From a virus: DNA of 64,000 nucleotides. The notes below the pieces were generated by a model. It was not told the DNA's origin, searched no databases, and saw only the letters and a program-made list of their open reading frames with translations. Positions 24,957 to 57,193 of the stretch are shown one piece after another. The DNA is taken from the IMG/VR virus record IMGVR_UViG_3300044815_000165, positions 25,134 through 89,133 of that record; one strand, given 5' to 3'. Made by a program: the position numbers and the translations under genes. Each line of letters begins with the position of its first letter. Within the stretch, counting starts at the first letter, position 1.

Positions 24957-25106
24957 GTTGAGATGGCGGAAGTAGGTAGACGCGCCAGCCTAGACGTGAC
25001 CCGATAACGGGCGCGTCGAAGCGGGTGTCTGGTAGCCAACGGGTTGCGCTGCAGCCGCGCTCGTTGCGTTCGCATCGGACTTGCTGGTTCGAGTCCAGCT
25101 CTCAAC
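24957..25106 (+). tRNA. tRNA-Leu/Ser-like element with expanded anticodon region
   Basis: Perfect 7-bp acceptor GTTGAGA (24957-24963) / TCTCAAC (25100-25106), a class II-type D arm (TGGCGGAAGTAGGTAGACGCG), and a perfect T arm GCTGG-TTCGAGT-CCAGC (25083-25099). Between the D and T arms there are ~100 nt instead of the usual ~45. The expected 3' anticodon-stem strand is not where it should be; the nearest match pairs CCAG (24985-24988) with CTGG (25029-25032) around a 40-nt hairpin. No CCA is encoded. It may be an intron-bearing tRNA, a decayed tRNA or a tRNA mimic. The anticodon cannot be called. Confidence 0.5.
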
Positions 25107-25116
25107 ACGAGGACAC

Positions 25117-26193
25117 ATGCCGAAGAAGCAAGACAAAGACAGAGCCCACGAGATCCGCGTTATGCGATCGACGCACAGCGAGATCACACGCATCAACGCG
25201 AAGGCAGACGTGCTTCTCAAGAACGTCATCGACCTCGGCGTTGTCCGTCCTCCTCCGAAGATCGACAAGGAGAAGGAGAAGAAGCTCACCAAGCTCTTCG
25301 CGAAGCTCAAGAAGAAGTACGACGATGTCGACGTGGTGACCACGATCGCCAACGGCTCGCGGAGCGCCACCAAGATCAGCACCATCCCGTCCGGGTGGCA
25401 GGAGATGGACGACCTCATCACCGGCGAGACCGACTCCGAGGCGCGCACCATCCCGGGCACGGGGCTCGGCTGGCCGCGCGGGCGGATCATCGAGGTCTAC
25501 GGCGACGAGGGTGTCGGCAAGACGTCCCTCTCGCTGCAGATCATCGCGGCGTTCCAGAAGGCTGGCGAGGAAGTCGCGTTCGTCGACGCCGAGCACTCGC
25601 TCGACGTCCGCTACGCGAAGAAGCTCGGTGTCGACCTGACGCGGCTCAAGATCGCGCAACCGGACGACGGCGGCGAGCGCGCCCTCTCCGTGGTTGCCGA
25701 GCTGTGCGAGAGCGGGCTGTTCGGCTGCATCGTGGTCGACTCGGTGGCCGCGCTCACGCCGGCGTCCGAGCTGGAGGCCGACTTCGAGGACACCATGCAG
25801 CCGGCGCGGCAGGCCGCGCTGATGTCGCGCGCGCTGCGCAAGCTCTCCGGCATCGTCTCGAAGAGCAACACGCTGCTCGTCTTCACGAACCAGCAGCGCA
25901 TCAAGATTGGTGTCCGGTTCGGCAACCCGAAGACGACGCCGGGCGGGCAGGCGCTGAAGTTCTACGCGTCGATCCGCATCGAGCTGGTGATGATCAAGAC
26001 CGTCCGCAAGGGCGACCGTGTCGTCCTGCGCCGCACGCGCGTGCGCACCGTCAAGAACAAGGTGGCGCCGCCGTTCCGCGACGTGTTCGTCGACGTCGTC
26101 CCGAACCAGGGCTTCGCCGCGGTGTACTCGGATCCCGACTTCGGCGGGAAGAGCACCAAGAAGAAAGACGAGGACGACGATGGCGGCGAGTAA
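25117..26193 (+). CDS. RecA/UvsX-type recombinase
   Basis: 358 residues from the ATG at 25117 (GAGGA upstream; the longer frame runs into the tRNA-like element). Walker A GDEGVGKTS (about 129-137), Walker B CIVVDSVAAL (about 208-217), L2-adjacent FTNQQRIKIGVRFGNPKTTPGGQALKF, all typical of RecA. A helical N-terminal extension of ~85 residues and an acidic C-terminal tail (KKDEDDDGGE). Catalyses strand exchange with the SSB and SbcCD partners in this block. Confidence 0.85.
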   Translation: MPKKQDKDRAHEIRVMRSTHSEITRINAKADVLLKNVIDLGVVRPPPKIDKEKEKKLTKLFAKLKKKYDDVDVVTTIANGSRSATKISTIPSGWQEMDDLITGETDSEARTIPGTGLGWPRGRIIEVYGDEGVGKTSLSLQIIAAFQKAGEEVAFVDAEHSLDVRYAKKLGVDLTRLKIAQPDDGGERALSVVAELCESGLFGCIVVDSVAALTPASELEADFEDTMQPARQAALMSRALRKLSGIVSKSNTLLVFTNQQRIKIGVRFGNPKTTPGGQALKFYASIRIELVMIKTVRKGDRVVLRRTRVRTVKNKVAPPFRDVFVDVVPNQGFAAVYSDPDFGGKSTKKKDEDDDGGE

Positions 26194-36009: not shown

Positions 36010-36153
36010 CTAGCGGCCGAGAGGTAGCGCTCGCAACAGCTCGATCACGCAGAGGAGCAGGATCGGCACCCACGCCGGGCACTTCCCGAGCGCCGATGCG
36101 ATGGTGCAGATGAACGCGGCGATGGCGATGATCAGAAAGACGGTGAGAGGCAT
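36010..36153 (-). CDS. Tiny two-pass membrane protein on the opposite strand
   Basis: 47 residues in a 170-nt gap between plus-strand genes. Two hydrophobic helices (PLTVFLIIAIAAFICTIAS and WVPILLLCVIELLRALPLG). The coherent membrane topology argues for a real gene, but there is no clear ribosome-binding site and the orientation is against all neighbours. An N-terminal extension of the plus-strand nuclease is the alternative use of this stretch. Confidence 0.45.
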   Translation of the reverse strand: MPLTVFLIIAIAAFICTIASALGKCPAWVPILLLCVIELLRALPLGR

Positions 36154-36178
36154 GCCCGAAGAGTACCCGACGCAGGAC

Positions 36179-36787
36179 ATGAAGAGCAGATTGCGCACCG
36201 CAAGCGGTAAGCGCCCGAGCGTCCACAAGGCACAGCGCGCTCCCGTCACGTCGATCGCCAAGGTCCTGTCGAACCGCACGCGAAAGAACAGCCGCCGCAA
36301 GGGCAACCGCAACGAGCTGGACATCGCGAAGGTGTTCTCGAATTGGAGCGGTGAGCTGGTGCGTCGCACGCCGGGCTCCGGCGGATGGTCGACCGAGAAG
36401 TTCGGCGTGACTGCCGACCTCGTGTGTCCGAAGAAGGCGTTCCCGTTCCACGTCGAGGTGAAGAACCGCCAGGGGTGGTTCCTCGATGACCTCGTCACCG
36501 GCGCGCGCGACGACCACGACAAGAGCATCGTGCAGTGGTGGATCCAGTGCACGACGTCGTGCCCCGCGAAGAAGATCCCGCTGCTCGTGTTCCGGCGCAG
36601 CCGCCAGCCGTGGCTCGTCATGATCGCTACGACGTCTCTCCCGGGCATCTACATGCTGCCGAACGTCATCGCCACGACGATGGGAGGCGAGGTCGGCGAC
36701 ACTGTCCGCGACGTCAGCGTGGTGTTGCTGAGCACGTTCCTCGGCGCCGCGTCCGTCCCCAAGGGTTTGCGAAACTACAACAAGTAG
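36179..36787 (+). CDS. PD-(D/E)XK nuclease, Holliday-junction-resolvase-like
   Basis: 202 residues from the ATG at 36179 (GCAGGA upstream). Motifs: NRNELDIAKVFSNW (E46), FGVTADLV (D80) and FHVEVKNRQGW (E93-x-K95), the layout of PD-(D/E)XK enzymes such as Hjc-type resolvases. Basic N-terminal 45 residues. In a phage with RecA, SbcCD, UvsW and RuvB it would be the natural resolvase, though other PD-(D/E)XK roles are possible. Confidence 0.7.
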   Translation: MKSRLRTASGKRPSVHKAQRAPVTSIAKVLSNRTRKNSRRKGNRNELDIAKVFSNWSGELVRRTPGSGGWSTEKFGVTADLVCPKKAFPFHVEVKNRQGWFLDDLVTGARDDHDKSIVQWWIQCTTSCPAKKIPLLVFRRSRQPWLVMIATTSLPGIYMLPNVIATTMGGEVGDTVRDVSVVLLSTFLGAASVPKGLRNYNK

Positions 36788-42012: not shown

Positions 42013-43770
42013 CTAACCCTCGAACGAGAAGCTGAACGGCGATTTCTTGCTGAGCTTCTCCATCGCGAGCCACGCGCTGCCAGCGGCGTGCACGAGGTGG
42101 TCGTCACCCGAGGAGGCGATCGCCTCGATCATCTCCTTGGTGTCGTCGTCGATCTCCTTCATGAGCGCGAGCGCCCTGAAGTGCTTGTGGAGGATCTGCA
42201 TCTTGTCGAGGGCGAGGCTGGCGAGCCCGAACTCACGCTCCTTGATGGCATGGCAGATGTTCTTGATCTGCATCGTGCGGTCGACGAGGACGCGTGCGCG
42301 CGCCGGGTCGCTCCACTCGGGTTGGAAGGTGCGGCTCTTGTGCGCGCTCGGGTTGTACCACTGCGCGTAGAAGCGATCCTCGTTGCCGACGGGGCATAGC
42401 CGTCGCAGGAGGTACGAGTTGCGGTCCTTGCCGTAGCCGGCGTCCGCGATGACGAGGTCGGGCGAGTACGGGCCGAGGAACCGCTCGACGTCCTTCGCGG
42501 ACCGCAGCTCCTCCGAGCTGTCCTCGAAGATGCCGATGTTGAGCAGGTACACGAGCCCGTTGATCGAGGAGCGACCGAGCACGAACACCCAGTTGAAGTA
42601 GCCCCAGTCGATGCCGGCGGTGATCTGCGACCACTCGTCGGTGCGGCCGAGCACGAACTCATGGCCGGCGCACGCGTTCTGGAAGTCGACGTCGCTGACG
42701 AGCGCGTCGTCCATCGAGCCAGGGAGCGCCGCGACGTAGTTGAGCCACGGCTGCAGCCACTTGAAGTCGATCTTGTCCTGCATCACGCGCGTCGCGGAGA
42801 TCCACGGCGCGATGAACTGCGGGACGTGGTAGCCGCGGATGTGCTTGCGGCTCGGGAAGCGCGCGACCCACTGGCCGGAGAACACGCGGTCGAGCTTCCC
42901 GCGGCACTTCACCTTGTGGCAGAGGTACTCGTAGCTCTCCGGCGGCAGCTCCTTCGTGCCCTCTGGGAAGTCCTTCACGCGGACGATGTTCTTCTGCCAG
43001 TCGACCTCCTGGTACTCGCCGCACTTCTCGCACTTCACCATCCAGACCTGCTGGTCGGAGTCGTTGAAGGCGACGTTGATCCCGCGGCCGGGAAGCGTCG
43101 GCGTGCTGTACTCGCGGAACAGGCCGTACTTCGACGACTTCAGCGACTCGCGGAAGGCCAGCTCGACCTTGTCGCGCATGCGGTCCTTCTCGTCCAGGAA
43201 CACCGCGTCGGCGTCGACGCCCTCGCCGAGGTTGCTCTCCCACGCGGAACGCATGATGAGGAACGACTCGCCGATCTTCTTCGTGAAGACCTGGTTCGGG
43301 ATGCCGGCGAGTGCGGCCATGCGCGGCGACTCGTTGAAGGCGGTGCCGATGCGCGTGATCGAGAAGTCGGCGAGCTGCTTGTCGCGCGGGAACGTGAGGA
43401 TGAGCTTCGTGCCTGGGTGCGTGGAGAGGAAGTGGAACACCTCCGACACGGCCAGCTCCGACCACCCGATCTGACGACCCTTCTGCGAAGCCTTGTGCTT
43501 GTGGTCGTCGCGCAGCGGCTGCTTGAGGAACGGCCGGTGGTGGAGCAGCCGCGAGTACAGCTCGCGCTCGTAGTCGGACCTGATGAGCGTCTTCTGGATG
43601 AAGCCGAGCGACTCCGGCGAGAGCCTGCGCGCGTTGTCGTAGATCAGCGCCTCGCCCTTCACCCGGCGGTTCAGGGCGCACCACAGGACCGGGTCCCGCT
43701 CTGCCACAGCCTCAAGCCCTCCCAGCGCCGATGCTTCGGGGGGAGACTCGATCACGTCCTTGAGTTTCAT
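42013..43770 (-). CDS. Terminase large subunit, lambda gpA-like
   Basis: 585 residues. Packages DNA: ATPase plus nuclease. Deviant Walker A K97-GRQIGWS104, like lambda gpA where Lys is at the front of the loop (KSARVGYS). Walker B DADAVFLDEKD (D193, E194). Gene-A-type zinc pairs CEKC (247, 250) and CHKVKC (284, 289). RNase-H-like nuclease start AGIDWGYF (about 378) and VIADAGYGKDR. Length is in the usual gpA range. Its usual partner, the small subunit, is probably the gene at 38495-39367. Confidence 0.85.
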   Translation of the reverse strand: MKLKDVIESPPEASALGGLEAVAERDPVLWCALNRRVKGEALIYDNARRLSPESLGFIQKTLIRSDYERELYSRLLHHRPFLKQPLRDDHKHKASQKGRQIGWSELAVSEVFHFLSTHPGTKLILTFPRDKQLADFSITRIGTAFNESPRMAALAGIPNQVFTKKIGESFLIMRSAWESNLGEGVDADAVFLDEKDRMRDKVELAFRESLKSSKYGLFREYSTPTLPGRGINVAFNDSDQQVWMVKCEKCGEYQEVDWQKNIVRVKDFPEGTKELPPESYEYLCHKVKCRGKLDRVFSGQWVARFPSRKHIRGYHVPQFIAPWISATRVMQDKIDFKWLQPWLNYVAALPGSMDDALVSDVDFQNACAGHEFVLGRTDEWSQITAGIDWGYFNWVFVLGRSSINGLVYLLNIGIFEDSSEELRSAKDVERFLGPYSPDLVIADAGYGKDRNSYLLRRLCPVGNEDRFYAQWYNPSAHKSRTFQPEWSDPARARVLVDRTMQIKNICHAIKEREFGLASLALDKMQILHKHFRALALMKEIDDDTKEMIEAIASSGDDHLVHAAGSAWLAMEKLSKKSPFSFSFEG

Positions 43771-44428: not shown

Positions 44429-45198
44429 TTCCCAGCTCCGAGCAGACGGCTGCCGTCCTGGATCTTGTCGAGCTGCTTGGCGACCTTCGTGGTGTCACCA
44501 CCGAACAGCGCGTAGAGGCGATCGTCGAGCGCAGTGATACCGGCACGGATCTGCTTGAGCACCTCGAGCCGCTCTTCGCTGAACAGCACGAGCCCGACCG
44601 GCGGCATCTCGCGCACCGCCTGGTTGTGTGATGCCGCGGTCCCGTCGTCATCGTCGACGTCTCGCTTGAGGATGCGATCCGCAGTGTCGCCTGGCAGCCG
44701 GAACGGGTTCGTGTACTCCTCGACGTGCCACGTCAGGTTGATGCCTAAGATGGGACGCGAGTCTTCGCCGTCCTCGTCTTCGTGCTTGCGGTTGAGACCA
44801 CGCGTGGTCGTGCCGTGCATGCCGCTGTGACCTCGGTACGGGATGACGGCCTCGTACGAGATGCGGATGTAGCGCGTCCACACCAGCGCGACGGCGGTGT
44901 TCGCCACGATCTCCATGCGCGCCTTCAGCGCGTCGAGGGACTTGGACACGTACCAGGTGGTGTCGTGCTCGGCGATGAATTCGGAGCCCTCGAGCCGCAG
45001 GATGAACGACACCGTCGAGTACCCGCGCGTGTCGAGCGCCACCTTCACCTTAAGCGTGTCGATCTTCTTCGGCAAGCGTCCGTTCAGCGGCTTGGATCTC
45101 TCCTCGACGAGCGACAGCTGCGCCTTGAGCTTGGCGGCACGCTCGGCCTCGTACACCGCCAGCGCGTCATCCGTTCGACTCGATAGCTTCTTGGTCAT
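44425..45198 (-). CDS. Hypothetical protein
   Basis: 257 residues. Helical N-terminus, a beta middle (STVSFILRLEGSEFIAEHDTTWYV, YIRISYEAVIPYRGHSGMHG), and a helical C-terminus ending ALFGGDTTKVAKQLDKIQDG. The gene overlaps its neighbours by 4 nt on both sides. No family recognised. Confidence 0.6.
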   Translation of the reverse strand: MTKKLSSRTDDALAVYEAERAAKLKAQLSLVEERSKPLNGRLPKKIDTLKVKVALDTRGYSTVSFILRLEGSEFIAEHDTTWYVSKSLDALKARMEIVANTAVALVWTRYIRISYEAVIPYRGHSGMHGTTTRGLNRKHEDEDGEDSRPILGINLTWHVEEYTNPFRLPGDTADRILKRDVDDDDGTAASHNQAVREMPPVGLVLFSEERLEVLKQIRAGITALDDRLYALFGGDTTKVAKQLDKIQDGSRLLGAGK

Positions 45199-46223
45199 GG
45201 TGTTCTGCTCCCTACGATGGCGGCGCGCACGCGCTCGCGTTCTTCGTTCTCGCGCGCGATCATGGCGTTCATCAGATCGCGGTCGATGTTGTTGTTGATG
45301 GCTGTCTCGACGAGCGCGTTCAGCTGCTGAGGATTGAGCGCGTCCAGCTCCCAGCTCTGGTCGCCGAACTCCTCGATGTACGCCGCCGCGCGCGAGTCGG
45401 TGATCTTGGCGGGGTTCGGCGGTGGGCGATACCTCCGGATCTGCGCCATCGTGAGCGCGAGCTTCTCTACCTTCAGGTTCGGCACACCGAACTCGCCGAG
45501 GCGCTCGCGGATGTCGCGGACCATGTCGTTGCCGCTCGGGTCATGGTCGCCGAGGTAGAGCACGACACACTGCTTCAGCTCGCCATCCTCGGCTTGCTCG
45601 CCGTCGCGATCGCCGCCCTCGAAGTTCCACCGGAAGATCGGATCAGTCTTCGTCTCGCATCCCTCGCACTTGCCTGTGTTCGAGCGGTTCTCGAACGGCG
45701 CCATGCAGTTGTCGCACTGCACCTCGACGTCGACGCCGCAGGCGCTGAGCATGCGGTCCGCGCTCGCCTTCATCGCGCTCGCCGAGCTGTAACCCTTGTT
45801 CACCATCAGCGGGACGTGGTTGCGACGCGCGATCGGTGCGAGCACGCCGGCGAGCGCCTGCTTCTCCACCCACAGCTCGACGTACCTCGGCTGGTCGGCC
45901 CACCGCGGAAGCCTGAACTGCCGGATGGCGAGGTCGACAAGCTCGTCGACGCTGTCCCACTCACCGGGCACGTCGGGCTCGCGCCCGCGGTCCTCGATGG
46001 CTTCCCAGTCGATGAGACCCGCGTACCGCGCGTCGGTGAGCATGCTCGTGAGGTTCTGGTACGTGCGCGGCGTGTTGGCGATCAGGTCGCGCGACACGAA
46101 CTGGTAGAAGAGCTGGCGCGCGGTGAGCTTCTGCCCGCCGTACTCGGCGATGATCGCATCGGCCTGCGCGATCATCGAGCGCGCGTTCTCGCGGAAGTTG
46201 GTCGATCTGAATTGTTGCTTCAT
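45195..46223 (-). CDS. Spo11 / Topo VI-A-like TOPRIM protein (Mini-A-like)
   Basis: 342 residues from the ATG at 46223. N-terminal winged-helix-like LTARQLFYQFVSRDLI with Tyr-40 where Spo11/Topo VI-A has its catalytic Tyr. TOPRIM: LWVEKQAL (E120) and LYLGDHDPSG (D226, D228). A four-Cys insert CDNC ... CEGC (170, 173, 186, 189) sits inside the TOPRIM. Stand-alone Topo VI-A-like proteins (Mini-A) are known from mobile elements and viruses. No GHKL B subunit is visible. It may cut or nick phage DNA, or act in packaging or recombination. Confidence 0.7.
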   Translation of the reverse strand: MKQQFRSTNFRENARSMIAQADAIIAEYGGQKLTARQLFYQFVSRDLIANTPRTYQNLTSMLTDARYAGLIDWEAIEDRGREPDVPGEWDSVDELVDLAIRQFRLPRWADQPRYVELWVEKQALAGVLAPIARRNHVPLMVNKGYSSASAMKASADRMLSACGVDVEVQCDNCMAPFENRSNTGKCEGCETKTDPIFRWNFEGGDRDGEQAEDGELKQCVVLYLGDHDPSGNDMVRDIRERLGEFGVPNLKVEKLALTMAQIRRYRPPPNPAKITDSRAAAYIEEFGDQSWELDALNPQQLNALVETAINNNIDRDLMNAMIARENEERERVRAAIVGSRTP

Positions 46224-48649: not shown

Positions 48650-48834
48650 CGGCGATGCCTCATGGCGCGCGCGAGCACGATGCAGTCGTGCGCGTGCTCT
48701 ACCAGCTGGTCGGGTGTCAGGAAGATGGATGCCTTCCTGTTATCCACGCGCTCGCGGACGCGGATGCGTGCGTACAACCCGTTGTTCTCGTCAACGAGTT
48801 CGATCTCGTCGCCTAGGTTGATGGTCCCTTTCAC
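48646..48834 (-). CDS. Small beta-barrel-like protein
   Basis: 62 residues, GTG overlapping the RuvB stop. INLGDEIELVDENNGLYARIRVRERVDNRKASIFL is an all-beta stretch, then a helix. No family recognised. Coupled to RuvB. Confidence 0.5.
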   Translation of the reverse strand: MKGTINLGDEIELVDENNGLYARIRVRERVDNRKASIFLTPDQLVEHAHDCIVLARAMRHRR

Positions 48835-49817
48835 GACGTGTACTCCGCGACGCTCTCGTCGTCTTCGCTCGGCGTCGTCATCGGGTTGTTCTGGAGATGC
48901 GTGACCGCCGCGGGCATCGCCATCCGACCTTGTGGCGTGCGGCGGATGAGGCCGGTCTCGAGCAGCCACGGCTCGATGATCCCTTCGATCACGCCGCGCT
49001 CGAGGCCGAGCTGCGCGGCGATGGCCATCACGCCGTACGGCGCGCCGAGCCGCTCGCAGAGGATCCCGAGATAGGCGCGGTCGTTCACGGTGAGTCCGAG
49101 CGCATCGACGCCGAGCGCATCGAACGTGTGGTCGGCGACCTCACACGTGATCACGCGCTCGCCGGCGGACTGCATGAAGTCGCGGCACGCGCGCACGAGG
49201 CGGTTCGCGATGCGCGGCGTGCCACGCGCTCGGTTCGCGATCATGACCGCGATCTGCGCCGGGTCGCTGCACCCGATGCCGAGCTTCTCCATCGTCCGCT
49301 TCGCGATGATCGACAGGTCGAGCACGCTGTAGTGCTTCAGGTCGAACGTGTACGCGAAGCGGTCGCGCAGCGGGCCGGTGATGAGGTGCGCGCGGGTCGT
49401 CGCGCCGATGAGCGTGAACGGCTGCAGCGGCAGGCGGATGGTCTTCTTGCCCGCGCTGAGGTCGACGTGGCCGTCCTCCGCAGCGCTGTACAACAATTCT
49501 TGAAGAGCAGGCTTGAGTCCGTGCAGCTCGTCCAGGAACAGCACGTCGTTCTTCCCGAGTGACGTGAGCATCCCGGTCAGCTCGCCCTTGTGTTCGATCG
49601 CCTGACAGATGGCGGCGTGGAGCTTCGACTTCATCTCCGTGGCTACGATTTGTGCGAGGCTCGTCTTGCCACATCCAGGCAAACCAGTCAGCAGAACGTG
49701 TCCGCATGCACGATCGTTGTGAGAGGCGGCAACCACGACTCGACGAAGCACGGAGACGGTTTCTCGTTGACCGACAAAGCTGTCGAAACTGCTCGGTCGG
49801 ATGTCGTTGTCCTTCAT
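48831..49817 (-). CDS. ruvB: RuvB-type Holliday junction branch-migration ATPase
   Basis: 328 residues from the ATG at 49817. All RuvB signposts are present: DIRPSSFDSFVGQ, Walker A GLPGCGKT (45-52), Walker B VLFLDELHGL (92-101), GATTRAHLITGPLRDRF (138-154, sensor 1 and arginine finger area) and a C-terminal winged helix GVIEGIIEPWLLETGLIRRTPQGR. Length is close to bacterial RuvB (~336). Drives branch migration with RuvA; a RuvA-C-terminal-like protein is encoded about 1 kb upstream in the same unit. The start overlaps the HNH stop. Confidence 0.9.
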   Translation of the reverse strand: MKDNDIRPSSFDSFVGQRETVSVLRRVVVAASHNDRACGHVLLTGLPGCGKTSLAQIVATEMKSKLHAAICQAIEHKGELTGMLTSLGKNDVLFLDELHGLKPALQELLYSAAEDGHVDLSAGKKTIRLPLQPFTLIGATTRAHLITGPLRDRFAYTFDLKHYSVLDLSIIAKRTMEKLGIGCSDPAQIAVMIANRARGTPRIANRLVRACRDFMQSAGERVITCEVADHTFDALGVDALGLTVNDRAYLGILCERLGAPYGVMAIAAQLGLERGVIEGIIEPWLLETGLIRRTPQGRMAMPAAVTHLQNNPMTTPSEDDESVAEYTS

Positions 49818-50230
49818 GTCTTGTCTTTCTTGCGTCGATGAAAAGCTGCACGATGGCAAGCTCTACAGAATCGACGACCGTTGGAGATTGTGGTGTTTTC
49901 TTCGGTGTACGCGTGACCTTGCGGACACTTCGTCTTGCGAGCGTTCCGAGCTGACAGCCCGTCGCCGCGCAGGGTGTTCTCGCGATGCGTGACCAGCTCG
50001 ACGTGGTTCGGGTTGCAGCACCAGCGATTCCTGCAGAGGTGATCAGGAACCATTCCGTTGGGGATTGGTTTGATGAGGTGTTCGTAGAATGCGCGGTGGA
50101 TATACAGCTGCGCGTAGTTCACGGTGATGCGCACGTACCCATCTTCTTTGGGGTGGATCGGAGATCTCCAGCATGACCATGGACCGACGATGCGAATCGC
50201 CGCCAAGTGATCTCCGATAGTCTTCTTCAC
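49814..50230 (-). CDS. HNH homing endonuclease (copy 2)
   Basis: 138 residues, GTG start. HNH_3 pattern: CWRSPIHPKEDGYVRI, IHRAFYEHLI, VPDHLCRNRWCCNPNHVELVTHREN (about 64-88), followed by a second Cys/His finger (KCPQGHAYTEEN ... RRFCRACHR). Seamless GTGA and ATGA junctions to both neighbours. Less GC-rich than they are. Very similar to copy 3 at 54850-55293. Confidence 0.85.
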   Translation of the reverse strand: MKKTIGDHLAAIRIVGPWSCWRSPIHPKEDGYVRITVNYAQLYIHRAFYEHLIKPIPNGMVPDHLCRNRWCCNPNHVELVTHRENTLRGDGLSARNARKTKCPQGHAYTEENTTISNGRRFCRACHRAAFHRRKKDKT

Positions 50231-50631
50231 GCGTCATCCGTTGGTTTGGGGATCTTCGCGAGCCAGCGCTCGCCGTCGTCGCGACCCGTCGTCTTCTTCA
50301 TCTTGCCGTTGTCCTCGAGCGTCACCCACCCGAGCTTCTCGAGCGAGCGAGCAACGGTCACCTGCGGTCCCTTGAGGAACATCCCGCCGCGCGGGAAGTC
50401 GCGGATCTCGTTCAGCAGCGCCAGCTGCTTGTCCGTGAGCAGGTTCTCCTTGGGCTCGCCGACGATGACGACGTCGCGGCGCGCCTGCGCCTCGTTCAGC
50501 GCGTGGTACGAGTTGCCACCGTCGATGCTGACCCAGACGTAGTTGCCCTGCGGACGCACCTCGGCGACGGCAGCCGCACCCTTGTAGATGCACGGACGCT
50601 TGCGGAAACCGAATCTACTGTGGAGGCTCAT
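50227..50631 (-). CDS. Hypothetical protein, possible winged helix
   Basis: 134 residues; AGGAG precedes the ATG. Beta N-terminal part (NYVWVSIDGGNSYHALNEA), then LLTDKQLALLNEIRDFPRGGMFLKGPQVTVARSLEKLGWVTLEDNG, which reads like a winged helix. No named family. Confidence 0.55.
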   Translation of the reverse strand: MSLHSRFGFRKRPCIYKGAAAVAEVRPQGNYVWVSIDGGNSYHALNEAQARRDVVIVGEPKENLLTDKQLALLNEIRDFPRGGMFLKGPQVTVARSLEKLGWVTLEDNGKMKKTTGRDDGERWLAKIPKPTDDA

Positions 50632-50783
50632 GCGTTCTCCTGCCATCTGATGAAGTGGCTGCGCAGCTCGTCGTAGTGCTCGTGCTCGAAGTCGTAGACG
50701 TCCTTCTGCCACGGTGCGTGCGACGGGTTGAGCCACGCGCGTCGCAGCAGTTCGGCGTAGCGCTTGAACAACTCTTCGCTCAC
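50628..50783 (-). CDS. Small hypothetical protein
   Basis: 51 residues, GTG start. SEELFKRYAELLRRAWLNPSHAPWQKDVYDFEHEHYDELRSHF: two helices joined by a turn. Overlaps upstream and downstream genes by 4 nt (GTGA, ATGA), which supports it. No family recognised. Confidence 0.5.
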   Translation of the reverse strand: MSEELFKRYAELLRRAWLNPSHAPWQKDVYDFEHEHYDELRSHFIRWQENA

Positions 50784-51262
50784 GTGTCACCTGCTACGGC
50801 GCCGGTGAGCGCCGCGGTGACCCACGTCTCGAGGTCGATGCGCGAGTCGGTCGAACACGCGTCCGTCCACCGGATCGCTTCCTTCCGGCTGTAGCCGGCA
50901 CCCGTGAGTGCCGCGATGACGTCGTCGCGCCACGGGTTCGCAGAGATGGGCTCGCGCTCGCCACGCGTCGTGTCGACGATCGGGGTGAGCTGAGGCTTGG
51001 TCATCACCTTGCGAAATGGACGCACGATCTTGGTGCCGGGTTCGGACGGCGGGCGACGTTCACGCGGTGGCGCCAGGCGAGCAGCGGGCAGCTCCCTGCG
51101 ACGTTCGTCAGCCAGCTTCGCGGCGTCGAGCTTCGCGAACGCGCGACGCTGGCGCCAGTCCTGAACGCGCAGCACGATCTTGTGCGTCTGGTAGCCGACG
51201 TAGATCCCGACCACGCCGCCGGCAGCTGCGCCGACGCCGAGGACCTCCCACGGCGGGCTCAC
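50780..51262 (-). CDS. Membrane-anchored protein with RuvA domain III-like C-terminus
   Basis: 160 residues, GTG start. Residues 5-30 are hydrophobic and Gly-rich (VLGVGAAAGGVVGIYVGY), a likely membrane anchor; a basic Pro-rich linker follows; residues 112-155 (DDVIAALTGAGYSRKEAIRW ... LETWVTAALTG) match the three-helix RuvA domain III, which contacts and regulates RuvB. RuvB is encoded about 1 kb downstream in the same unit. The tetramer-forming RuvA domains I and II are absent, so it is not a full RuvA. Confidence 0.6.
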   Translation of the reverse strand: MSPPWEVLGVGAAAGGVVGIYVGYQTHKIVLRVQDWRQRRAFAKLDAAKLADERRRELPAARLAPPRERRPPSEPGTKIVRPFRKVMTKPQLTPIVDTTRGEREPISANPWRDDVIAALTGAGYSRKEAIRWTDACSTDSRIDLETWVTAALTGAVAGDT

Positions 51263-54849: not shown

Positions 54850-55293
54850 TCATGCTCCTTGATTCAGGTTTCGTTGTTTGCGTTTCCATTTGCGCGTTCT
54901 CTCCCTCGCGCAGATGCGGCACGCTCGATAGCCGTTGTAGCCGTTCGTGTTTTCCGTGGAGTACGGATGCCCCTGCGGGCAGTGCGTCTTCGCCGCATTA
55001 CGCGACGCGATCCCATCTCCTCGGAGAATGTTCTCGCGCTGCGTGACAGGCTCGAGGTGGTTCGGATTGCAGCACCAGGTATTCCTGCATAGATGATCAG
55101 GAACATGTCCGTCTGGAATCGGTCCGATGAAGTGCTCGTAGAAGGCTCGGTGCGCGCGAAGTTTCTTCGCACCCATGTGGAGCCTGACGTAGCCGTCGCG
55201 ATCCACTCGGTTCGGCAACCTCCAACACCACCACGGTCCGACTAGTTCGATGTTCGCGAAGTAGTCGCTGATGTGTTTGAGCGGAGGAGCCAT
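54850..55293 (-). CDS. HNH homing endonuclease (copy 3)
   Basis: 147 residues. HNH_3 pattern WWCWRLPNRVDRDGYVRL, AHRAFYEHFI, VPDHLCRNTWCCNPNHLEPVTQREN (about 63-87), then THCPQGHPYSTENT and RACRICARER. Closely related to copy 2 (same PDHLCRN-WCCNPNH core and ILRGDG-S/A-RNA-KT). It is inserted between two genes that share the MSxNASV start, and its 3' end lies in the leader of the second. Confidence 0.85.
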   Translation of the reverse strand: MAPPLKHISDYFANIELVGPWWCWRLPNRVDRDGYVRLHMGAKKLRAHRAFYEHFIGPIPDGHVPDHLCRNTWCCNPNHLEPVTQRENILRGDGIASRNAAKTHCPQGHPYSTENTNGYNGYRACRICARERTRKWKRKQRNLNQGA

Positions 55294-55645: not shown

Positions 55646-57193
55646 CTACAGGTCGAGCGAGCGCGTCGTGCCGAGCGCCGTGGTCTCGGGCGTGCTAGCC
55701 GGTCGCGCGCGTCCTTTCGCCCACTCGCGGAGCGTCGAGATCTTCTCGCTCGCCGTCTTCGACAGCGGGATGACGCGCGTCGCGGCCCGCTTCAGGTCGT
55801 CCGTGTTGATGGGACGCTTCCCGTCCGCGAACGCCTCGAACAGCGCGTCGGGCACGAGCGCCGCGATCTCCGCGCCGACGAACCCGTCGGTCGCGAATGC
55901 CACCGCCTGCAGGTCGATGTCGTCGATCGGACGGTTGAATGCCTTCAGCGACGCCGCCACGATCTCGCAACGCTCGCCCTGCTGCGGAAGGTCGACGAAG
56001 AACATCTCGTCGAAGCGTCCCTTGCGGAGCAGCTCGGGCGGCAGCTGGCGCACGTCGTTCGCCGTGGCCACCACGAACACGCTGGCCGTCTTCTCCTGCA
56101 TCCAGGAGAGGATGACGCCGAGCGCGTCGGTGGACACGCCGCCGTCGCCCTGCTGCCCGGAGGCGCCGGCGAGCGCCTTCTCGATCTCGTCGAACCAGAG
56201 CACGCACGGCGCCATCGTCTCCGCGAGCGCGATGAGCCGGCGGATGTTCTGCTCGGAGTCGCCGACGTACTTCGACTTCGCGCCGCCGAGGTCGCCGCGG
56301 AGCAGCGGGACCTGGAACGCCGTGGCGAAGCACTTCGCGGCGAGCGACTTGCCCGTGCCCGGGAGACCGACGAGCATCACACCCTTGGGAGCCGGGAGAC
56401 CGAAGTCGCGCGCCTCCTGCGTGAAGGCAGCCTTGCGCTGCGTGCACCATGTCTTCAGCTCGCCGTAGCCGCCGATGGCATCCAGGCCGCGCGGGTCGGG
56501 CTCGTGCCACGTGACGCCCGGGATGCCAGCGATGAGGCGCTTCTTCTCGCTGGTGACGATCGCCGGGTCGACCTTGCGGTTCGTGACCAGCGAGCGGCTG
56601 TAGCTGTTGCTGATCTGGAAGGCGGAGAGCCCGAGCGCGCCGTCGATGGCGCGGTCACGCGTGCCGTTCGGTGCGGCGTCTGCGCGCATCGGCTCGGGCA
56701 GCGCGCCGATCACGTCGTCCAGGAGGCGCGAGACTTCCGCGCGGTCAGGGAGCGGGTACTCGATGACCGTCATCTCGGGCACGTCGCGCGGGATCTCGGC
56801 TGTCATCGGCGAGAGCAGCACCACGCTGCGCGCCTCGTTCGGCGGCGCGACCTGCAGCTCGCGCGACAGGTTGCGGAGCTTGCGCAGGATGGTCGGGTCG
56901 CCGACCCACTTGTGGAGATCGCGGAGCACGTACACCGCGCGCTCCTTGCGCGTGCGGATGAACTCGAGCGCCGCCGACGGGTCGCCATTCTGCGAGAACC
57001 GCGTGGTCTCGTCCGCGCCCGTGATGCCGCGGTCACAGTCCCAGAACCGCGTCTCGTACTTCGCGGCGGCAGCGGCACCCACGAGCGCACGCTCCACGCG
57101 CATCTCGTCGTCGCTGCGCACGAGCAGGAGCGTGTTGCGCGCCTTCAGGAGCGCCGTGATGTCGCCGTTGACGGTGGTCGCGTTGATGCTCAC
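55646..57193 (-). CDS. Ycf46-like AAA+ ATPase
   Basis: 515 residues. Degenerate N-terminal half (AVYVLRDLHKWVGDPTILRKLRNLSREL, SVVLLSP, IEYPLPDRAEVSRLLD) then a full AAA+ module: Walker A GLPGTGKS (276-283), Walker B VLWFDEIEKA (331-340), VVATANDVRQLPPELLRKGRFDE (sensor 1, Arg finger) and a lid domain. The Ycf46/FtsH-like arrangement is typical. Probably remodels a protein or protein-DNA complex; target unknown. Confidence 0.75.
   Translation of the reverse strand: MSINATTVNGDITALLKARNTLLLVRSDDEMRVERALVGAAAAAKYETRFWDCDRGITGADETTRFSQNGDPSAALEFIRTRKERAVYVLRDLHKWVGDPTILRKLRNLSRELQVAPPNEARSVVLLSPMTAEIPRDVPEMTVIEYPLPDRAEVSRLLDDVIGALPEPMRADAAPNGTRDRAIDGALGLSAFQISNSYSRSLVTNRKVDPAIVTSEKKRLIAGIPGVTWHEPDPRGLDAIGGYGELKTWCTQRKAAFTQEARDFGLPAPKGVMLVGLPGTGKSLAAKCFATAFQVPLLRGDLGGAKSKYVGDSEQNIRRLIALAETMAPCVLWFDEIEKALAGASGQQGDGGVSTDALGVILSWMQEKTASVFVVATANDVRQLPPELLRKGRFDEMFFVDLPQQGERCEIVAASLKAFNRPIDDIDLQAVAFATDGFVGAEIAALVPDALFEAFADGKRPINTDDLKRAATRVIPLSKTASEKISTLREWAKGRARPASTPETTALGTTRSLDL

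Follow-up and report, generated by a model that had tools for sequence, protein, structure and literature searches.

Genes around ruvB in the window

The DNA analysed here, called the window throughout, is a stretch of 64,000 nucleotides corresponding to positions 25134-89133 of an uncultured virus record that has 89,133 bases in total. The virus is a tailed phage: its replication and packaging genes in the window encode a terminase large subunit, a DnaB-like helicase, a primase, a DNA polymerase and an SSB, and SbcCD-like proteins and RecA are encoded as well. The minus strand carries a complete ruvB and, upstream of it, a gene for a 160-aa protein that we call the adaptor, after the role proposed for it below. 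The features are as follows, in window coordinates.

25117..26193, plus strand: phage RecA (Pfam RecA, 276.5 bits)
36101..36787, plus strand: Hjc/RusA-like PDDEXK putative Holliday junction resolvase (phrog_244, E 3.8e-24; PF24608, E 4.6e-31; match at about 36275-36637)
42013-43770: terminase large subunit
48831..49817, minus strand: phage RuvB, 328 aa, complete (Pfam and NCBIfam profiles)
49814..50230, minus strand: HNH endonuclease gene (Pfam HNH_3 above cut-off; phrog_826)
50227..50646, minus strand: intervening ORF of 133 to 139 aa, with two possible starts (no family match)
50628..50783, minus strand: intervening ORF of 51 aa (no family match)
50780..51262, minus strand: adaptor protein, 160 aa, GTG start (ORF reading, profiles, predicted fold)
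50792..50941, minus strand: segment coding for the RuvA-domain-III-like three-helix bundle of the adaptor, residues 108-157 (AlphaFold, Foldseek, hhalign 94%)
51188..51250, minus strand: segment coding for a putative membrane helix of the adaptor, residues 5-25 (conserved position and charge pattern; moderate hydrophobicity)

A preliminary description of this DNA had proposed that a full-length, 328-aa RuvB and a 160-aa protein with a basic, Pro-rich linker form a shared minus-strand unit. The RuvB is confirmed at 48831-49817: it scores 325.8 bits against the NCBIfam RuvB equivalog NF000868 (cut-off 282) and 289.8 against TIGR00635, just under 299.05, and its RuvB_N (PF05496), AAA_lid_4 (PF17864) and RuvB_C (PF05491) domains are all above the Pfam cut-off. 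The adaptor, whose start codon overlaps the stop codon of the gene upstream, likewise has the architecture claimed for it, with a hydrophobic N-terminal helix (about residues 5-25), the basic Pro-rich linker and a C-terminal homologue of RuvA domain III (about residues 108-157). The two genes share a strand, but they are not adjacent: the 51-aa ORF, the ORF of about 133 aa and the HNH endonuclease gene lie between them. The stop codon of the HNH gene overlaps the start codon of RuvB, and no HNH gene was seen between the adaptor gene and ruvB in the relatives that we read. Within 49635-50230, third-position GC is 0.59 for ruvB codons 1-61 and 0.65 for the HNH gene, whereas the remaining ruvB codons have 0.91; judging from this composition, it is as if part of ruvB had been co-converted when the HNH gene arrived. 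Another HNH_3 endonuclease gene, at 54850-55293, resembles this one at the N-terminus and in its low third-position GC (0.68); it is flanked by conserved genes of the block that holds ruvB.

RuvA domains I and II and RuvC had been described as absent, and this stands: neither RuvA_N (PF01330, the junction-binding domain I) nor RuvC had a match in any of 6 records, and a 160-aa protein leaves no room for domains I and II. A resolvase candidate is present, though. The PDDEXK protein, matching phrog_244 and PDDEXK_15, was found in 6 of 9 records; phrog_244 is named as a RusA-like Holliday junction resolvase, and since the same profile matches in two archaeal control genomes, the protein may be Hjc-like. 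As judged from these profile searches, RecA and a candidate junction resolvase accompany RuvB, and what is missing is the junction-recognising part of RuvA. Two side observations concern neighbouring genes. A single tRNA-Cys gene (25015-25108) lies immediately 5' of the phage recA, and a protein with a DHDPSG motif and no Pfam match (45195-46223), kept downstream of ruvB in several relatives, is probably the source of the window's match to phrog_6247, "DNA topoisomerase" (E 4.6e-88).

The phage RuvB and the C-terminal domain of the adaptor

The phage RuvB shares with bacterial RuvB the three domains, the Walker motifs, the arginine finger, the sensor residues and the hydrophobic hairpin positions. 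In all six phage RuvBs compared, the Walker A Lys, the Walker B Asp-Glu, the arginine finger R174 and the sensor 2 R217 are kept, and at the presensor-1 hairpin sites equivalent to E. coli I148 and I150, two residues that matter for RuvA binding, they have Ile, Leu or Val and Leu or Ile, respectively. It differs from bacterial RuvB in being only about 40-44% identical to those found (a search for bacterial relatives with the RuvB family profile gave one bacterial RuvB, 42% identical), in a presensor-1 hairpin 4 residues shorter than that of E. coli, and in the wing, where the DNA-contacting Arg (R316 in E. coli) is replaced by Gln or Lys. Mutation of the equivalent R317 of Pseudomonas aeruginosa RuvB to Ala abolishes branch migration (PMC10071043). 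RuvA domain III binds the presensor-1 hairpin and helix alpha-3 of RuvB, with a role as a tether and in nucleotide exchange (PMC9477746; PMC10272136). RuvB matches from a phage collection were all below 60% identity and mostly short unannotated fragments, and were left out of the analysis; these records (H1-H36) are mostly fecal or phage-named, some with a bacterial-like RuvB, and are possibly bacterial contamination.

By itself, the adaptor sequence is marginal. Its C-terminus matches Pfam RuvA_C with 17.6 bits (E 0.0055), below the gathering score of 24 bits, and the last 50 or so profile positions of TIGR00084 (ruvA) with 18.2 bits (E 0.0015) against a cut-off of 85, so that the score for a whole-length RuvA equivalog is not reached. 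Searches with this one sequence found no PDB match, nothing in 50,697 phage records, no PHROG and no viral match. Because 17.6 bits was all that a single sequence gave, relatives were sought. The IMG/VR relatives of the phage RuvB are L002, L005, L008, L009, L011, L014/L015 and L016, and adaptor relatives were found in all except L016; the adaptors of L014 and L015 are identical and are counted once. No adaptor relative was found in GTDB genomes. As the collection searches were pattern-seeded, these counts are lower bounds.

With the family in hand, RuvA_C is the sole Pfam family common to all six members of the adaptor alignment that were scanned, though single-sequence scores stay under the gathering score, and the five adaptors tested match a single NCBIfam family, TIGR00084, always with the C-terminal end of its model. 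No Pfam UBA match was found in the adaptor or in the family members scanned. Against all PDB sequences, the family profile ranks RuvA domain III in places 1-3, with weak E-values of 0.2-0.8. In an hhalign comparison, the seven-member family aligned with full RuvA (bacterial RuvA loci plus E. coli RuvA) at 94% probability (P 1.4e-7, score 52.7), and the 52 aligned columns fall on the end of RuvA that is domain III; the best of 150 column shuffles scored 21.7 and the reversed control 14.1. The predicted fold agrees. Our AlphaFold2 model of the window adaptor has a C-terminal helical bundle (pLDDT about 77-90 for residues 111-160), with low confidence outside domain III. In Foldseek its top 20 matches are all RuvA, with a probability for RuvA domain III of up to 1.00, and RuvA also ranks first for a second modelled member (L009). 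Normalised to isolated domain III in RuvAB complexes, the TM-score is 0.77-0.78 for the window adaptor (7pbm_H, 7pbl_G, 7x7p_A) and up to 0.80 for that of L009. As the domain has only about 45 residues, Foldseek E-values under 0.001 would not be expected, and none was obtained. UBA domains stand lower in both lists, with probabilities of up to 0.57; a BFVD fold search gave nothing convincing. The models thus predict the three-helix domain-III fold for the adaptor C-terminus.

The preliminary description had seen a resemblance to RuvA domain III without domains I and II, to be given up if the structure matched nothing or only a UBA-like bundle. Instead, RuvA domain III ranks above UBA for both models, and the resemblance is supported by the sequence profiles, by the predicted fold and by its conservation among relatives. 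Since the family, the profile comparison and the fold are taken together, we consider the homology of the last 50 or so residues with RuvA domain III, the RuvB-docking domain, to be a firm assignment at the level of sequence and model. The adaptor has in common with this domain of bacterial RuvAB (RuvA_C, PF07499) the profile, the three-helix fold, the C-terminal position after a flexible linker and RuvB as genetic company. It differs from bacterial RuvA in that domains I and II, responsible for junction binding and tetramerisation, are replaced by the hydrophobic helix at the N-terminus and the basic linker.

The adaptor and RuvB occur in the same order and on the same strand in seven distinct uncultured phages, with varying genes directly between them. 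Both belong to a syntenic block that has genes for an AAA+ ATPase and for 258-aa, 111-aa and 91-aa proteins upstream, and topoisomerase-like and terminase genes downstream. The AAA+ ATPase, at the upstream end of the block (55646-57193; 515 aa, AAA plus AAA_lid_3), is syntenic in most of these phages. As block synteny is general among them, linkage alone is no proof of interaction. The relatives' RuvBs are about 66-76% identical to that of the window; over the alignment, RuvB identity is 66-75% and that of the adaptor 29-34%. Whichever two adaptors are compared, domain III shows stronger conservation than the linker, with the N-terminal helix usually intermediate. Identity across all pairs was used here because the dN/dS ratio of domain III between L008 and L011 was uninformative, synonymous divergence between the two also being very low. 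L016 has RuvB and no detected adaptor, which is weak evidence against strict linkage because its contig stops 3.5 kb upstream of ruvB, leaving the upstream syntenic genes outside the part examined.

The N-terminal helix of the adaptor

All seven adaptors share an N-terminal layout: a short start segment, a hydrophobic helix whose glycines at G11, G15 and G23 (window numbering) are invariant, and then basic residues. Six of the seven have a run of 17-20 residues without charged or strongly polar residues, with KD19 values of 1.40-1.75 there; in the L014 adaptor, a proline breaks the charge-free run. The flank after the run has a net charge of +4 to +9. The window adaptor has a moderate KD19 of 1.40; on an approximate scale of insertion, distinct from the published predictor, it comes 10th among the 110 genes of the window. 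KD19 values in this range also occur in soluble window proteins such as RecA, and AlphaFold draws residues 5-56 as one long helix. A match of the helix to Pfam MTLN (mitoregulin; E 0.0021), found in one member only, was taken as membrane-segment resemblance and not as homology.

In four relatives, a strongly hydrophobic segment (KD19 1.93-2.87) directly follows the adaptor gene. It is a separate short ORF in two of them, at the following positions; in L008 and L011 it shares the frame of a longer ORF.

L009, 9918-10076: hydrophobic segment after the adaptor gene, separate short ORF
L014, 8716-8922: hydrophobic segment after the adaptor gene, separate short ORF

From these sequence features, the adaptor N-terminal helix probably inserts in the membrane, and its pattern would fit a membrane helix that is weak or packed through glycines and oriented N-out/C-in. 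The hydrophobic anchor of the preliminary description is conserved and plausible in its position and charge pattern, but it is only moderately hydrophobic.

A proposed role for the adaptor and its alternatives

We propose that the 160-aa protein serves the phage's own RuvB, as a dedicated adaptor that would dock on it and tether or cluster it, probably at the membrane; we put the probability of this reading at about 0.5. In this scheme, domain III would dock on the presensor-1 hairpin and neighbouring helix of the phage RuvB, as RuvA domain III does on its own partner, while the Gly-patterned N-terminal helix would insert into the inner membrane and leave the basic linker and the docking domain on the cytoplasmic side. 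The adaptor may oligomerise via its glycine pattern, which would present several docking arms to one RuvB ring in place of the arms of the RuvA tetramer. This would serve to load, cluster or regulate RuvB, through nucleotide exchange, at membrane-associated sites of phage replication or recombination; junction recognition would come from host RuvA or another phage protein, and cutting from the phage PDDEXK resolvase. In favour of this reading we count the domain-III homology, the linkage in seven phages, the stronger conservation of domain III than of the linker, the hydrophobic residues kept at positions 148 and 150 of a hairpin on which RuvA domain III sits in published structures (PMC9477746), the lack of RuvA_N and RuvC matches in six records, the presence of RecA and a candidate resolvase, and the hydrophobic segment after the adaptor in four relatives. 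We count against the model the moderate hydrophobicity of the helix, the proline in L014, the shorter hairpin, L016 without an adaptor, and the low AlphaFold confidence outside domain III. A more elaborate version, which we offer only tentatively and think rather doubtful, is a branch-migration machine without RuvA, in which membrane-anchored, detached domain-III arms, oligomerised by a glycine zipper, would load and gate the phage RuvB at the membrane and feed an Hjc-like resolvase, with another protein recognising the junctions.

Several other explanations have to be weighed against the proposed docking and tethering of the phage RuvB. The N-terminal helix might be a soluble or peripheral Gly-rich oligomerisation helix, making the adaptor a membrane-free minimal substitute for RuvA that presents several domain-III arms to RuvB. 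The KD19 values of six of the seven members, matched by soluble RecA, and the single predicted helix over residues 5-56 would suit this; a charge-free run followed by a positive flank is, however, typical of single-pass anchors, and the adjoining hydrophobic segment in four relatives also speaks for the membrane, so that we hold a membrane-free role to be unlikely. Alternatively, the adaptor might be a decoy that takes host RuvB from host RuvA, so that the host can no longer process Holliday junctions, with other partners serving the phage RuvB. Domain III could bind host RuvB, since RuvA and RuvB of different species work together (PMC9477746), and isolated docking arms could compete with RuvA. 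A decoy would bind the phage RuvB too, however, and the adaptor is linked to its own RuvB in all seven adaptor phages, for which reason we favour the cognate partner over a hijacked host RuvB and regard the decoy as improbable.

It is also conceivable that the domain-III fold now serves a different partner, for example the upstream 515-aa AAA+ ATPase, and that RuvB binding has been lost. The synteny of the ATPase gene and the fast divergence of the adaptor fit such a change of partner. What this domain family is known to bind, however, is RuvB, which no adaptor phage lacks and whose docking hairpin keeps the hydrophobic positions; we therefore give this explanation little credence. Chance similarity to an unrelated UBA-like helical bundle is very unlikely and largely refuted: the subthreshold single-sequence Pfam scores and the presence of UBA domains in the Foldseek lists are outweighed by the profile-profile match with its clean controls, the lack of a Pfam UBA match, the higher rank of RuvA domain III for both models, and the linkage to RuvB.

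RuvA domain III has so far been viewed as one arm of a junction-binding tetramer. The claim that the pairing is not a standard described system agrees with our search of the open-access literature, where we found no described system that pairs RuvB with a detached domain-III adaptor. In architecture, the adaptor recalls the membrane organisers of phage DNA replication of the phi29 p16.7 type, which have an N-terminal membrane helix, a linker and a small C-terminal helical cytoplasmic domain; the adaptor ends in a RuvB-docking domain whereas p16.7 ends in a DNA-binding one, and no homology is claimed. If the adaptor works as we propose, it would be a new way to steer the well-known recombination motor RuvB. 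A natural lone docking arm with a probable membrane helix would show that recruitment and regulation of RuvB are separable from Holliday junction recognition, and it would offer a minimal natural tool to separate docking from junction binding. It would also suggest that recombination is membrane-localised in a phage group.
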